Assembly: GCF_000331025.1 (NCBI RefSeq)
Contig: NC_020055.1
Span: 2,575,370-2,639,369 of the forward strand
From: Maridesulfovibrio hydrothermalis AM13 = DSM 14728
Lineage (GTDB): Bacteria; Desulfobacterota; Desulfovibrionia; Desulfovibrionales; Desulfovibrionaceae
Direction of reading: 5' to 3'
DNA: 64,000 bases
Position 1 is the first letter of the stretch; each line of letters begins with the position of its first letter. This document shows positions 5,120 through 64,000 of this stretch, piece by piece. The notes below the pieces were generated by a model, which saw nothing but the letters and a program-made list of their open reading frames with translations, was not told the DNA's origin and did no database searches. The position numbers and the translations under genes were made by a program.

Positions 5120-5213
5120 TGGCGGAAGTGTATAGGAGTCGAACCTACCGACGAGGGTTAACCCGTCCACTGGATTTGAAGTCCAGGCGCCACACCGGTG
5201 ACGATACACTTCC
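5120..5213 (-). tRNA. selC: tRNA-Sec (anticodon TCA), selC
   Basis: Read on the reverse strand, the gene starts GGAAGTGT and ends ACACTTCC-GCCA, giving the eight-pair acceptor stem typical of tRNA-Sec and an encoded CCA. The anticodon arm CTGGA-CTTCAAA-TCCAG carries TCA (complement of 5177-5179). A long variable arm and the T arm GTAGGTTCGACTCCTAT follow. The 94-base length is right for selC. It reads UGA as selenocysteine, so the genome should encode selA, selB, selD and selenoproteins such as formate dehydrogenase. None is visible in this window. Confidence 0.96.
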
Positions 5214-25496: not shown

Positions 25497-25988
25497 ATGA
25501 AAAAATCTGTGAATATTTTATTTTTCCTGCTGTTGATATTTTGTATGTCTACGGCCGGTTTTGCTCAGGAGAAAAAGGTTGTTCCTGATTCTAAAACAAA
25601 ACCTGCCGTTACGCGCAAAGATGATCAGGCAGTGAAAAAAGATGGAGTTCCAGTTGTTGTCGAACACGTTGGAAACGATGTGCTTGGTGGAACTTTGGCT
25701 TTAAAGTTAAAAGAAAACTTCAGGAAATCTGTTTTGTTTCAACTCGCAGATAAAAGCAGAAAATCTGTAAGGATTAAAATAAGTTCACGCAGCGAATTTA
25801 CTGATCGTCCTGAAATAGGTTCAGTGTATGCTGTGATCTGGACTTTTGCCGAAAGCGGGGATGTGGTTCCATTTTATCTTGCTGAAGAAATTGGAGTTGT
25901 TAATTTTCAGAATACTGAAAGTGCAGCTGCGGAATTAATTAATAAGACTGATAAGATTGCGGGAGAATATAAATATTTATTTGAGTAG
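25497..25988 (+). CDS. Hypothetical exported protein, 163 aa
   Basis: N-terminal signal peptide (KKSVNILFFLLLIFCMSTAG, cleavage probably after GFA). A Lys/Pro-rich linker follows, then a compact domain with GTLALKLKENFRKSV and LADKSRKSVRIKISSR. No lipobox. The RBS AAGGAG precedes ATG. It converges on, and overlaps by 12 bases with, the CCA-adding enzyme gene on the other strand. Function not recognised; probably periplasmic. Confidence 0.7.
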   Translation: MKKSVNILFFLLLIFCMSTAGFAQEKKVVPDSKTKPAVTRKDDQAVKKDGVPVVVEHVGNDVLGGTLALKLKENFRKSVLFQLADKSRKSVRIKISSRSEFTDRPEIGSVYAVIWTFAESGDVVPFYLAEEIGVVNFQNTESAAAELINKTDKIAGEYKYLFE

Positions 25989-27232: not shown

Positions 27233-27913
27233 ATGAAAAAGAAAATATTGATATTAATACTTTTGATTTTGGTTACAGTCCTCTTTTTTGCTTTTGATCT
27301 GGACCGTTTCCTGACCTTGGAATATATGAAAAACTCCCGTCAGGAGTTTCAGAATTATTATGCGCAAAACCCTGTTTCCACCGTGCTTGGCTTTTTCCTG
27401 ATATATGTTGTGGTCGTTGGGGTAAACTTGCCGGGGGCCAGTGTGCTGGGGCTTGCTGGAGGGGCTTTATTCGGTTTTACCACAGCAGTCATAACCATTT
27501 CTTTCGCCAGTACTATAGGGGCCACTTTTGCCTGTTTTTTTTCCCGTTATTTGTTCAGGGATTATGTGCAGCGCAAATTCGGTGAACGTCTTGAAAAAGT
27601 TAATAAGGGAATTCAGGAGGAAGGATCTTTTTATCTTTTCACTTTACGTTTGATCCCTGCGGTTCCTTTTGTGGTAATCAACCTGATTATGGGACTTACA
27701 CCCATGAAACTCCGGACTTTCTATTGGGTTTCTCAGATAGGAATGCTGCCCGGGACAATGGTTTATGTGAATGCAGGCAAAGAGCTTGGGAAAATTGATT
27801 CACTTTCAGGGATTGTTCAACCCAGCCTTATACTGTCTTTTGCAGCTCTCGGGCTTTTTCCTTTATTAGTAAAAAAAGCAGTTGCAGTAGTTAAAGCTCG
27901 GCGGAGTGTTTGA
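27233..27913 (+). CDS. TVP38/TMEM64 (DedA-superfamily) membrane protein
   Basis: 226 residues with about five to six predicted membrane helices. The VTT-domain motif is visible: GVNLPGASVLGLAGGALFG, then FASTIGATFACFFSRYLFRD, then LRLIPAVPFVVINLIMGLTPM. Members are thought to move phospholipids or maintain the proton gradient; the exact role is unproven. 43 bases separate it from the first cNMP-binding gene. Co-transcription is possible. Confidence 0.88.
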   Translation: MKKKILILILLILVTVLFFAFDLDRFLTLEYMKNSRQEFQNYYAQNPVSTVLGFFLIYVVVVGVNLPGASVLGLAGGALFGFTTAVITISFASTIGATFACFFSRYLFRDYVQRKFGERLEKVNKGIQEEGSFYLFTLRLIPAVPFVVINLIMGLTPMKLRTFYWVSQIGMLPGTMVYVNAGKELGKIDSLSGIVQPSLILSFAALGLFPLLVKKAVAVVKARRSV

Positions 27914-27956: not shown

Positions 27957-29132
27957 ATGTTAGCCAGAACTTCACCGAGCATACGTAATTTTCATAAAGG
28001 GAAAATTATATTTTCCGAAGGGCAGGAAAGTAAAGTTGCCTATATGATAAAGTCTGGAACCGTTAATATCTATCGTAAAATCAACCGGCAAAAGACTGTA
28101 CTGGCTACCTTGCGGCGAGGTGATATTTTCGGTGAAATGGCACTTCTTGCAAATCAGAAACGCACTGCATTCGCCGAAGCATCCAGTTTTTGCGAGCTTG
28201 TTGTTTTGACTGAAGATCTTATGCAGAAGCTCCTTGCAGCCGCTCCATGTACAGTTCAGAAGATGGTTGAACTGCTGGCTAAAAGAGTTGTTGAGACCGA
28301 TGGCAAATCTTCCGATTCCGATCAGAGTGACTCCTTTATTGCTTTGGCAACGATACTCAATGTTGCATATAAGGAATTTGCCTATCTGCCTAGAGATAAA
28401 CAGGCCGGAGTAAAGAATTATAAGATGGGGCTGTCGGTCAGTTCTTTTAAAGAGACTGTAAAAAGCCTTGCTATGTTCTCTAACCTTGAAATTGAATCGT
28501 TTCTTGATACTGTTTTTAAACTTCGTCTTATAGAAATGAAGAGTCTAAAGAAAGGGGATAAAGGGGCATTTGTTGAAAAATATATCACTATTAAAGATAT
28601 TGAACAATTTATGCATTCTCTGCGCAATTTATATAAGCAAATGCAGGAGCTTGGGGCCAGCGTTGAATCTCGAATGAGTTATATGACTTTTTCTGATCTT
28701 GCAGCAAGAACAGGTACAAAACCTGAACTTGTTTATAAGAAAATTTTAAAAGAGGAAATGCCTGATAACTTACTGTTTTTTAACAGGGAAAAGGCTCTGG
28801 AATGGCGCAAGGATAAGGATGAAAATTTCTTTAAGAAGTTCAAACGTCCCCGCAAGGTTCTTGAAGATCTCGAAAATGTTGATGATCTTATTTATATTGA
28901 TAATCCGGCCCTTTTGAAAGTCTTCGCAGAATTTGAATTCTATAAGATTTCAGTCTTGTATTCTGCCGGAGACAGCCGGATCAAAAATAAGATTAAACGT
29001 AATATCGGGCGTAAAATGGCAAATATTCTTGAGCAGGAGCCTCCGGATGCCCGTGATCATGATGATCCAGAAGTATTAGAATGCTGTGATGAGCTTTTTG
29101 ATCTAGTAAGAAAGTTGAAAAGGGCTATTTAG
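27957..29132 (+). CDS. cNMP-binding domain protein with FliG-C-like tail (paralogue 1)
   Basis: 391 residues. Residues 10-125 are a cyclic-nucleotide-binding beta-roll: FHKGKIIFSEGQESKVAYMI, SGTVNIYRKI, LRRGDIFGEMALLANQKRTA with the GEMALL phosphate-cassette position. Helical residues 140-230 follow. About residues 240-285 look like an excisionase/MerR-type helix-turn-helix (FSDLAARTGTKPELVYKKI, then FFNREKALEWRKDKD). Residues 305-391 resemble the C-terminal domain of the flagellar switch protein FliG: LENVDDLIYIDNPALLKVF, YKISVLYSAGDSRIKNKI, NIGRKMANILEQE. FliG's middle-domain EHPQ motif is absent. The combination is unusual. An almost adjacent paralogue (40 bases downstream) has the same plan. 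Confidence 0.65.
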   Translation: MLARTSPSIRNFHKGKIIFSEGQESKVAYMIKSGTVNIYRKINRQKTVLATLRRGDIFGEMALLANQKRTAFAEASSFCELVVLTEDLMQKLLAAAPCTVQKMVELLAKRVVETDGKSSDSDQSDSFIALATILNVAYKEFAYLPRDKQAGVKNYKMGLSVSSFKETVKSLAMFSNLEIESFLDTVFKLRLIEMKSLKKGDKGAFVEKYITIKDIEQFMHSLRNLYKQMQELGASVESRMSYMTFSDLAARTGTKPELVYKKILKEEMPDNLLFFNREKALEWRKDKDENFFKKFKRPRKVLEDLENVDDLIYIDNPALLKVFAEFEFYKISVLYSAGDSRIKNKIKRNIGRKMANILEQEPPDARDHDDPEVLECCDELFDLVRKLKRAI

Positions 29133-29172
29133 GATGTTTTTTTCGTAGTTATATGAATCCGGGAGCTGGTTA

Positions 29173-30309
29173 ATGAGTTCAAATAAGCCCGTATCGAAAA
29201 CTTTTTATAAAGGCGATGTTATTTTCCGTGAAGGAGATAAAGGTAACGTTGCTTATATGATTCAATCGGGTACAGTAAATATTGTTAAGAATATTAAAGG
29301 TAAACAAAATGTTCTGGCTACTCTGGGAGCTGGTGAGTTGTTTGGTGAAATGGCCATTATCACCAAAAGTGAGCGGGTTGCCGGAGCTGAAGCTGCATCT
29401 GAATGTTCACTCCTTGTTTTGACTGCTCGTTTAATACTTCTGCTGCTTAAAAAAAGTCACCCCACAGTTTTTCATTTAACTCGTATTCTTGCATCAAGGC
29501 TTGCTAATGCCAACCGTACTATCTCTGATAATCGCAGCGATAATTCATGGATGACCTTTTGCCGTTTTATGCACATGAAGCAGCGCGTGATAGATAGTAC
29601 TCCGCCGGACATCAGGCCTATCGGGCTTGACTTTGATGTTTTTTGCAAGGAGCTGATTGATATAACGAATATGCCGAAATCTGATATTACCAAATTTATG
29701 AAATCCGCTGCCGGATTCAATATGCTCTCAACTAATAGACTTGCTAATAATACTTATGTAAGCATCACTGATCCGGATAATTTTCTTGAAATTGCTGAAA
29801 GTATTTCAGGCGATATCAATAAGTTTGGTGGAAAGGTCTGCCTTGCGGATTATATGGATATTGATGATTTTGCCCGTATGGTCGAATCAAATCCTGAAAT
29901 GATTTATAAAAAAGTCGGGGTAGGTGAGTTTCCGGAAGACATCTGTGTTTTACATAAGGAAGCTACCGCAAAATGGGCTGAGAAAAAGGGCGTTCAGTAT
30001 TTTAAAGAATCCAGGCGTAAGCGTAAGTCCATTGATGAGCTGGAAGATGTGAACGATATTGTTTTTGTTGATATCGGAACTTTAAAGCAAGCCTTTAGAA
30101 AAATCGGATATTACAAGATTGGAATTTTGCTGGCCATTGCTGAGGGGGATGCCAGAAAACGAATCATTATGACTCTTTCAAAAAAAATTGCGGGCGCGAT
30201 TATGAAAGAATCCCGTGCTTCTGAAGCTATCGACCAGACTGAAGCTGATGATGTTGAGGAAGAACTCATTGATATAATCAGAGATATCAAATCTAGCGAT
30301 ATTAAGTAG
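29173..30309 (+). CDS. cNMP-binding domain protein with FliG-C-like tail (paralogue 2)
   Basis: 378 residues, built like the preceding gene. The cNMP domain begins TFYKGDVIFREGDKGNVAYM and has GAGELFGEMAIITKSERVA. The HTH-like part has DIDDFARMVESNPEMIYKKV and VLHKEATAKWAEKKG. The FliG-C-like tail reads ELEDVNDIVFVDIGTLKQAF, GYYKIGILLAIAEGDARKRI, LSKKIAGAIMKES. Conservation of all three parts between the two copies argues that the architecture is functional. GGGAGC precedes ATG. Both genes are free of obvious frameshifts. Confidence 0.65.
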   Translation: MSSNKPVSKTFYKGDVIFREGDKGNVAYMIQSGTVNIVKNIKGKQNVLATLGAGELFGEMAIITKSERVAGAEAASECSLLVLTARLILLLLKKSHPTVFHLTRILASRLANANRTISDNRSDNSWMTFCRFMHMKQRVIDSTPPDIRPIGLDFDVFCKELIDITNMPKSDITKFMKSAAGFNMLSTNRLANNTYVSITDPDNFLEIAESISGDINKFGGKVCLADYMDIDDFARMVESNPEMIYKKVGVGEFPEDICVLHKEATAKWAEKKGVQYFKESRRKRKSIDELEDVNDIVFVDIGTLKQAFRKIGYYKIGILLAIAEGDARKRIIMTLSKKIAGAIMKESRASEAIDQTEADDVEEELIDIIRDIKSSDIK

Positions 30310-30432: not shown

Positions 30433-31356
30433 ATGATTACACGAATTACAATTATCAATGGAAAAGCTGAAAGTCCTCTTCCTGAAGTCACTCCTGAAAA
30501 GTTGTTTCAGGCTCATCCGCTTTGGGCCAGAGATATTGAGCACTATGGCCCCTGGAATAGCGAAGATGCAGAGTACAAAACATATTCTACATGGCTGTCC
30601 GGCTCCAGAACCGGAGTGCCGGTTGCTGTTTGCGGGGCGTGTGTTTCAAGTCTTGATGTAGCATGGCGGCTTAATGCGCTTGAAGATCTTCCCGACTGGG
30701 GCAGTGTTATAGCACTTGAACAGAATACGGGACGCGGACAGGTGCGCCGTGAGTGGATATCTCCTGCCGGTAATATTTACGGGGCAATTAAATGGCCTTC
30801 GCTTCCAGCTGGTGATCCCGGTGAAAGCCGTCCTGTATGGAACAGAATTCTTCCTTTGATTGTTGGTTATCTGACCTGTAATGCCCTTAAAGACCTCGGG
30901 GTGGAAACTCAGCTTAAATGGCCCAATGATATCCTTATTGACGGCAAAAAGGCTGGCGGAATTCTCATTGAAGAACGTGGTGATGTGACGATGGTCGGAA
31001 TAGGCCTCAATATCGCCTACGCGCCTGAAAGAGATCAGCTTCGCGTAGACCATGCCGTGCCTGCCGGAAAGCTGAATACGGATAAAATGCAGCTCGGACC
31101 TCTTGAAACGTGGGTCGGGCTTATGAAATATTATAAGACACATTTTGACGCAATTGTGTCTTCACAGGATGCTGATAATTTTCTTTATGAACTTGCTGAT
31201 CAGCTGGTCTGGTTCGGTGAGGAGGTGAAAATAGTGGATGGACCTGACGGAGTCACTCAGGGAGTAATCTGTGGACTGCGGTCTGACGGAGGGCTTGTAG
31301 TGGAGAAGGACGGAGTGAAACATAACATTTATTCCGGTTCTGTCATGCCTTTGTAA
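30433..31356 (+). CDS. birA: Biotin-[acetyl-CoA carboxylase] ligase
   Basis: 307 residues of the BPL/LplA/LipB superfamily. GRGQVRREWISPAGNIYGAI is the biotinyl-5'-AMP loop (normally GRGRxxRxW), followed by KWPNDILIDGKKAGGILIE and VGIGLNI. A C-terminal SH3-like domain ends the protein. The N-terminal ~80 residues are not a DNA-binding HTH, so this is the monofunctional form and not an E. coli-type BirA repressor. It attaches biotin to carboxylase carrier proteins. GGGA lies before ATG. Confidence 0.9.
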   Translation: MITRITIINGKAESPLPEVTPEKLFQAHPLWARDIEHYGPWNSEDAEYKTYSTWLSGSRTGVPVAVCGACVSSLDVAWRLNALEDLPDWGSVIALEQNTGRGQVRREWISPAGNIYGAIKWPSLPAGDPGESRPVWNRILPLIVGYLTCNALKDLGVETQLKWPNDILIDGKKAGGILIEERGDVTMVGIGLNIAYAPERDQLRVDHAVPAGKLNTDKMQLGPLETWVGLMKYYKTHFDAIVSSQDADNFLYELADQLVWFGEEVKIVDGPDGVTQGVICGLRSDGGLVVEKDGVKHNIYSGSVMPL

Positions 31357-63491: not shown

Positions 63492-64000
63492 ATGGCATTT
63501 GAAATTGAGTTGAAATTTTTAGACGCTGATCATGAGTCGGCTCGTAGTATAATGAAAGAGCGGGGCGGTGAATTTCTTTCCCGTCATTATGAGCGTAATG
63601 TGGTGCTGGATGATCCGGGGCGGACTTTATATAAGCGTTCTGCCTTGCTGCGGGTCAGGCAGGCGGATAAGATTACTATGACTGTTAAGCGTATTCCGGC
63701 TGATATCATTGAGGGCAAAGCCAAGGTTTATGTTGAACACGAGACTGAGGTTTCTGATTTTGATGAGACTGTTTCAGCTTTGCAGGTGCTGGGGTATGCT
63801 CCAGTTTTTCAGTATGAAAAGATTCGGGAAGAATGGAAGTTTGCCGATTGTCATATTTGTCTTGATCATTTACCATTTGGCCTGTTTATTGAGATAGAAG
63901 GGGCGGAAGATGAAATTTTAGCCTGTGCTGATTTGCTCAGGCTTAAGGAGGCAGATTCCTGCAAAAAAACTTATCATGAACTTAATAGAGATTACCGTGC
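63492..64000 (+). CDS. CYTH-domain protein, CyaB-like adenylate cyclase family (partial)
   Basis: The gene is cut by the window end after 169 codons. The ExExK motif EIELKF near the N-terminus, then RSALLRVRQADKITMTVKRI, YEKIREEWKF and HLPFGLFIEIEG show a CYTH tunnel fold. Members include class IV adenylate cyclase (CyaB), thiamine triphosphatase and tripolyphosphatase; the VRQ, EKIREEW and ICLDHLPFGLFIEIEG parts favour CyaB. It could supply cAMP for the cNMP-binding pair at 27957-30309, but this is inference. Confidence 0.85.
   Translation, partial: MAFEIELKFLDADHESARSIMKERGGEFLSRHYERNVVLDDPGRTLYKRSALLRVRQADKITMTVKRIPADIIEGKAKVYVEHETEVSDFDETVSALQVLGYAPVFQYEKIREEWKFADCHICLDHLPFGLFIEIEGAEDEILACADLLRLKEADSCKKTYHELNRDYR

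Follow-up and report, generated by a model that had tools for sequence, protein, structure and literature searches.

We analysed a stretch of 64,000 nucleotides (nt), hereafter the window, from Maridesulfovibrio hydrothermalis AM13 = DSM 14728 (assembly GCF_000331025.1, contig NC_020055.1, positions 2,575,370-2,639,369 of the forward strand). It holds two tandem genes, open reading frames (ORFs) 1 and 2, spaced by 40 bases, each encoding a sensor of the type that binds cyclic nucleoside monophosphates (cNMP), two helix-turn-helix (HTH) regions and a tail homologous to the C-terminal torque domain of FliG. A third paralogue in the same genome is encoded directly ahead of the stator genes motA and motB, and the family probably acts on that stator as a FliG mimic under cNMP control. 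The features of the tandem pair, in window positions, are:

27957..29132, + strand: ORF 1 (protein P0001), 391 amino acids, tandem copy 1, with cNMP sensor, CRP-like winged-helix region, excisionase-like HTH and FliG_C-like tail
27984..28238, + strand: cNMP_binding domain of ORF 1, residues 10-94, with the phosphate-binding cassette FGEMALL....R.A (Pfam, E 5.2e-20)
28323..28640, + strand: CRP-like winged-helix region of ORF 1 (HTH1), from the family profile against CRP (positions 9-194) and a low-confidence model
28665..28841, + strand: excisionase/MerR-like HTH of ORF 1 (HTH2), from hhalign
28863..29120, + strand: FliG_C-like tail of ORF 1, residues 303-388 (Pfam, E 0.0026, below the cut-off; family profile)
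29013..29039, + strand: torque-helix counterpart of ORF 1, K353 (= FliG R281) to E361 (= FliG D289), from alignment
29173..30309, + strand: ORF 2 (protein P0002), 378 amino acids, tandem copy 2, with the architecture of ORF 1
29197..29451, + strand: cNMP_binding domain of ORF 2, residues 9-93 (Pfam, E 2.5e-20)
29536..29814, + strand: CRP-like winged-helix region of ORF 2 (HTH1), from profile alignment and a low-confidence model
29836..30012, + strand: excisionase/MerR-like HTH of ORF 2 (HTH2), net charge -4 (hhalign; RacA, Z 4.0)
30037..30294, + strand: FliG_C-like tail of ORF 2, residues 289-374 (Pfam, E 7.4e-5; structure model and fold search)
30181..30219, + strand: torque-helix counterpart of ORF 2, residues 337-349, with K338 (= R281), K345 (= D288) and E346 (= D289), from model and alignment

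The two proteins are paralogues that align end to end (28% identity over 389 columns, E 3e-58); no NCBIfam model reached its cut-off in either of them. An earlier note on this DNA had described two adjacent paralogues of common domain order: a cNMP-binding beta-roll, a helical linker, an excisionase/MerR-like HTH and a tail resembling, by eye, the C-terminal domain of FliG. Its gene coordinates are exact, the beta-roll is recognised by Pfam in both proteins, and the HTH and the FliG resemblance are borne out by the comparisons below. The helical linker has to be amended: it also contains a winged-helix region of the CRP type.

The tail is homologous to the C-terminal torque domain of FliG. Pfam FliG_C matches the ~86 C-terminal residues of P0002 just above its cut-off of 23.3 bits (23.4 bits), and those of P0001 below it (18.4 bits). 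We collected 93 family members and used 48 diverse ones, both window proteins among them, for Pfam scans. FliG_C is found at E <= 0.01 in all 48 (best 4.8e-12), and it is therefore not a chance match. When a profile of the 48 tails was compared with the chain sequences of the PDB, 11 sequences fell below E 0.01: all are FliG, the best at 1.4e-11.

Residues 212-378 of ORF 2 were modelled with AlphaFold2 (AF2) from an input with six relatives. The model has a mean predicted local distance difference test score (pLDDT) of 79, ten-residue blocks averaging 70-93 from model residue 81 on, that is, in the tail. The tail is predicted to form six helices, as in the C-terminal domain of FliG. The top 16 Foldseek matches of the tail model in the PDB are chains of FliG structures, including MotAB-bound FliG (8ucs), at weak E-values (best 0.011, none below 0.001). 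VIA-align superposes the model on chain 3 of FliG structure 8wiw with a Z of 14.0 (1.2 Å over 87 residues), against 4.2 for the best non-FliG chain, and the template-modelling (TM) score against 1qc7_B, by target, is 0.86. As the Foldseek E-values are weak and helical models may reach a Z of ~13 in VIA-align through common arrangement, it is the drop to Z 4.2, together with the sequence profile, that carries the case for the fold. A generic helical bundle, the alternative that the earlier note had named, thus fits far worse than FliG. An MgtE-like domain was weighed for the tail as well and rejected, with a Z of just 4.2. Since FliG_M has no match in the Pfam scans of the window proteins and the 48 members, and since both FliG_N matches with a position shown fall on the tail itself (FliG_N being matched in four of the 48), the family members are not FliG proteins.

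At the other end, the sensor is equally constant: cNMP_binding is matched in 48/48 scanned members, and across the family the phosphate cassette keeps its G (93/93), E (93/93) and R (90/93). The cassette is intact, and the sensor may bind a cNMP. A search of the genome for the class III cyclase family and for CYTH found one class III match, which carries a CHASE2 domain and is a possible source of the ligand. A CYTH-domain protein, either class IV cyclase-like or a triphosphatase, lies at window positions 63492-63998 and runs off the window end (PF01928, E 6.2e-18).

The middle region is less clearly classified. CRP chains align with the family profile through the winged helix, over positions 9-194; HTH_Crp_2 has no match at E <= 0.01 in the 48 scanned members. 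By hhalign, HTH2 matches four HTH_17 proteins from this genome with a probability of 88.7 across 47 columns, and it has a weak structural match to RacA (Z 4.0). The assignment of HTH2 rests on these two comparisons because profile searches of the PDB returned nothing significant with the HTH2 segment and no convincing family with either HTH segment. A full-length AF2 model from seven sequences is poor (mean pLDDT 57.6) and so serves just as a hint of the winged helix; its fold matches are cNMP proteins and FliG, with little on the middle region. The net charge of HTH2 has a median of -4 (range -10 to +2 in 48 members; +2 in ORF 1, -4 in ORF 2), and that of HTH1 a median of +2 (-3 to +7 in 48 aligned members); as a yardstick, the four HTH_17 proteins carry 0 to +10 over their whole length. 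Compared with them, HTH2 has a wing shorter by four residues and no G-x-x-[WS]-[RK] stretch. A conserved basic linker (median +4 in 16 residues, 273-288 in P0002 numbering) leads from HTH2 to the acidic tail.

Apart from the true FliG and the two window proteins, a FliG_C search of the genome found one further protein:

C2:1014869-1016029: third paralogue, overlapping motA by 4 nt, with motB following

The three genes form an operon-like run (C2 ~1013358-1016029; L006 8359-11030), in which the partners are recognised by Pfam as MotA (MotA_ExbB) and MotB (MotB_plug and OmpA). This MotA is one of five in the genome. In a sample of the class (199 genomes, 45 genera), a full-length family member is present in 57 genomes, all within one taxonomic family; 147 genomes have some match to the family protein, those beyond the 57 mainly to the cNMP part. 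MotA of the partner subtype (E <= 1e-50) occurs in exactly the same 57 genomes, from 14 of the 45 genera, and lies directly downstream on the same contig and strand in 57/57, at a distance between matched segments of -1 to 56 nt. A wide margin sets the subtype off, as its weakest match scores 349 bits and the other four MotAs of the genome score 101-160.2 bits. Of 57 gene-to-motA junctions, 41 are 4-base overlaps, 14 are 1-base overlaps and one is a 3-base gap, with one misplaced by a long start; this tally left out five further rows with over-long starts (four genomes and a duplicate record).

MotB follows MotA at 61 of 62 loci, the exception being L156. A scan of genome contigs gave at least 80 loci, five of which (L007-L011, from Desulfovibrio and Pseudodesulfovibrio) cover the query and were used as named loci. 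They have the same gene-motA-motB order, L010 after a start correction, and three of them are not independent, since their family proteins are identical to those of sampled genomes. The remaining loci, among the matches listed, show mainly the cNMP part, and the three examined (L063, L068, L084) have no tail. In genome G164, a second, very divergent family copy (a 676-codon frame) lies just behind the operon motB (L131 4936-6966).

R90-D289 and E98-R281 are known MotA-FliG pairs, the former mattering for stator placement and the latter more for torque, according to passages of PMC4030992. Further charged residues of the torque-helix surface are K264, D288 and R297. By spacing, we located the five positions in FliG of this genome, where they read K, R, E, D and K. 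Of the 93 tails, 91 have K at the R281 position and two have N, and the D289 position is E in 81, D in 10 and Q in two: the FliG-side charges of both known pairs are kept. The D288 position is D or E in 63/93, including 58/62 mot-linked copies and the one extra copy.

On the stator side, we aligned 62 partner MotA sequences (57 genomes and the five named loci). E98 is E in 62/62. The R90 position holds S (36), A (19), T (1), G (1) or a gap (5), and never R, and position 92 is K or R in 56/62; the other four MotAs of the genome, which alone served as the comparison with ordinary MotA, have R at 90 and E or D at 92. The channel aspartate of MotB (D32) is D in all 61 MotBs found at the 62 loci, and its peptidoglycan-binding motif E-G-H-[ST]-D is nearly constant. 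Judged by these alignments, the partner stator looks adapted to an unusual partner: the tail keeps the best-known charge pair that faces the stator, and its MotA carries a positive charge two residues beyond the R90 position.

The window tandem has other surroundings. Its direct neighbours are:

27233..27913, + strand: VTT-domain membrane protein (Pfam), directly upstream of the tandem
30433..31356, + strand: biotin-protein ligase (birA), directly downstream of the tandem

The pair stands between these two genes in 14/14 relatives. A 163-amino-acid protein with a weak ExbD/TolR-like match (25497-25988; E 1.8e-4, below the cut-off) and the 257-amino-acid protein preceding it are likewise near the tandem in 14/14 relatives. 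The tandem occurs alongside the mot-linked copy in 15 of the 16 sampled genomes of the window's genus; the sixteenth, G104, has short N- and C-terminal tandem remnants only, again between the VTT and biotin-ligase genes (L187 5814-6229). In the tree, each tandem position forms one clade (15 rows each, support 100/100), separate from the mot-linked rows. Tandem copy 2 is grouped with the very divergent extra copy of G164 (98/92), which the program flags as a possibly false join, and with branches this long the exact attachment of the tandem clades is uncertain. The tandem is thus a stable, diverged duplication, observed in this genus only and not part of a motility operon. The link to motility, which the earlier note had only proposed, is supported independently by the family's other branch, directly upstream of a MotA gene in all 57 sampled genomes that have it; the genes adjoining the window pair are not motility genes. 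Elsewhere in the window are direct repeats of clustered regularly interspaced short palindromic repeats (Rfam CRISPR-DR4; 57-504, eight units at 60-base spacing) and a selenocysteine transfer RNA gene (5124-5213, - strand).

Outside the class, a search of 297 genomes of the phylum (E <= 1e-25) gave matches in 19. Three of these are known family, three belong to one genus and have the full architecture, and 13 have the N-terminal part only, as judged by match ranges and, for three of the 13, by re-examination. The three full-architecture genomes (L198, L199, L200) come from another class, of which they are the only three in the sample (3/3 positive), and show the order of cNMP domain, HTH region and FliG_C-like tail. 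The one that was Pfam-scanned has both cNMP_binding and FliG_C, the latter at E 4.8e-12.

Setting out from the domain homology, the predicted fold, the conserved torque-helix charges, the constant pairing with one MotA subtype and the altered rotor-contact residues of that MotA, we consider it probable that the family is a cNMP-controlled FliG mimic, which docks on a dedicated MotAB stator subtype and gates it; whether by inhibiting or by recruiting it is undecided. In the arrangement of the third copy, the gene precedes and overlaps motA, with motB next in line. The C-terminal domain of the protein copies the torque domain of FliG, while the portions of FliG from which the C ring is built are absent. 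Its torque-helix-like face would most likely dock on the rim that the MotA of the operon presents to the cytoplasm. The CRP-like cNMP module may then switch this docking, so that the level of cyclic AMP (cAMP) or cyclic GMP (cGMP) keeps the stator off the flagellar rotor or hands it over, as in a cNMP-operated brake or clutch. As diverged duplicates, the two window proteins might tune that stator too, or might form mixed dimers with the operon copy.

Several observations weigh against this proposal. The window pair is flanked by a VTT protein and birA rather than by motility genes. The full-architecture relatives outside the class adjoin a GGDEF response regulator and a histidine kinase (by Pfam in L198, by eye in L199 and L200), with no motA within their loci of ~3.8 kb; the architecture thus has no strict tie to motAB. 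In the tail, the K264 position is basic in 0/93 (S or A in 86/93), the R297 position is D in 71/93 and basic in 0/93, and the D288 position is acidic in merely 4 of 30 tandem copies. The loss of MotA R90, which pairs with FliG D289 in Salmonella and E. coli, means that the docking geometry need not copy that of FliG and MotA. Finally, a pure brake leaves the two HTH-like domains unexplained.

Two further readings come next in weight. It is conceivable, at roughly a third of the weight that we give to stator gating, that the soluble FliG mimic is more than a brake, being the stator's own readout or rotor, and that engagement or turning is reported through the cNMP receptor to genes or other targets. 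If so, the change of MotA R90 to S or A and the new basic residue at 92 would be an adaptation to the mimic, and the family would be a stator-based mechanosensing regulator. The main rival, somewhat less probable again, is a stator-tethered transcription factor: a CRP-like body with two HTHs would be held at the membrane, on MotA, by its FliG-like tail until FliG displaces it on stator engagement, whereupon it would turn to DNA, so that stator engagement (load) and cNMP level jointly set gene expression. Among solved structures, the body comes nearest to Bd2879 (9sfa), which the family profile matches over positions 8-198 at E 6.5e-16. The account available from PMC12750041 describes Bd2879 as a putative transcription factor that combines two winged HTHs with a cNMP domain. 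The alignment with CRP running through the winged helix, the conserved basic linker before the tail and the +2 charge of HTH2 in ORF 1 speak for this rival. On the other hand, HTH2 is acidic in most members and HTH1 near neutral, against 0 to +10 in the HTH_17 yardsticks; the shorter wing without G-x-x-[WS]-[RK] and the 48 members without an HTH_Crp_2 match point the same way. We rank a CRP-type transcription factor below the FliG mimic that gates the stator because its HTHs are mostly acidic or neutral.

It is unlikely that this MotAB no longer drives the flagellum and has the cNMP protein itself as its rotor, ion flow turning or straining the sensor, which would report this or do other work. 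In favour of this, the MotA subtype always accompanies a family protein in the sample (57/57) and is without the R90 used for positioning at the flagellar rotor, a residue that the four other MotA genes of the genome keep. Against it, no torque-passing domain was seen, a ring is not expected of a tail that comes without FliG_N and FliG_M, and the CRP-like body suggests a dimer, as CRP is.

A slightly poorer candidate still is a tail that is only a generic dimerisation or protein-binding helical domain without motor role, the proteins being ordinary regulators. Tandem copies outside motility operons, and the related genus with the architecture beside c-di-GMP signalling genes and no motA nearby, would suit it, but the fold and sequence are specifically those of FliG, and the partnership with one MotA subtype is constant. 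Least probable is an add-on to the C ring, in which the tail would bind FliG or its FliM or FliF neighbours and alter the switch, linkage to motAB reflecting only a shared flagellar role: FliG_C domains do also pack against neighbours within the C ring, but the linkage is to one MotA subtype in 57/57 (no systematic search covered linkage to fliG or fliM) and the two charges best known to face MotA are preserved in the tail.

How does a FliG mimic that gates its stator compare with known systems? With FliG_C (PF01706) the tail shares homologous sequence, the predicted fold, and the basic R281 and acidic D289 positions; in FliG this domain is joined to FliG_N and FliG_M, whereas here it is attached to a cNMP sensor, K264 is lost and the R297 position is mostly acidic. 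With CRP/FNR proteins the family shares the cNMP beta-roll, the C-helix and the winged-helix region, but it adds a second HTH and the FliG_C tail and has no HTH_Crp_2 match. The residues with which CRP reads DNA are by eye not conserved in the family. Bd2879 of Bdellovibrio has the same succession of a cNMP domain and two HTHs, and Foldseek aligns it with the low-confidence full-length model over 377 columns at a root-mean-square deviation of 18.8 Å. It differs from the family in that its end is disordered and bears a zinc-finger motif in place of FliG_C, and several of its cNMP cradle residues are replaced, as stated in parts of PMC12750041.

In mode of action, the family may be likened to YcgR/FlgZ, which, in passages of PMC12713396 and PMC13432727, are cytosolic receptors of cyclic di-GMP (c-di-GMP) that target the stator-rotor interface; binding of YcgR to MotA is expected there to disrupt the MotA-FliG contact (PMC12713396). 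The parts are unrelated: the family has a cNMP-type sensor and a FliG-like tail, and its gene is encoded with the stator. PilZ, the domain of YcgR, has no match in the Pfam scans of the window proteins and the 48 members. The EpsE clutch of Bacillus subtilis uncouples rotor from stator, as outlined in part of PMC13432727. EpsE binds FliG, whereas the family resembles FliG and is expected to bind MotA. We know of no role of EpsE as a cyclic-nucleotide sensor.

Our literature search, covering open-access papers, found no description of a protein joining a cNMP sensor to FliG_C. To our knowledge, c-di-GMP receptors are the only case known in which a second messenger controls the flagellar stator directly, and how one stator set is selected over another is an open question. 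In the sections of a 2026 review consulted here (PMC13432727), the effect of cAMP on motility runs through CRP and transcription. If a stator subtype has a cNMP-linked FliG mimic of its own, a single operon would suffice to test the choice among five MotA genes, and the altered contact residues of MotA would be precise targets for mutation. Altogether, our analysis points to what may be a new kind of control of the bacterial rotary motor by a small signalling molecule: if true, a receptor that copies the rotor surface gripped by the stator is a different solution from that of the c-di-GMP receptors.

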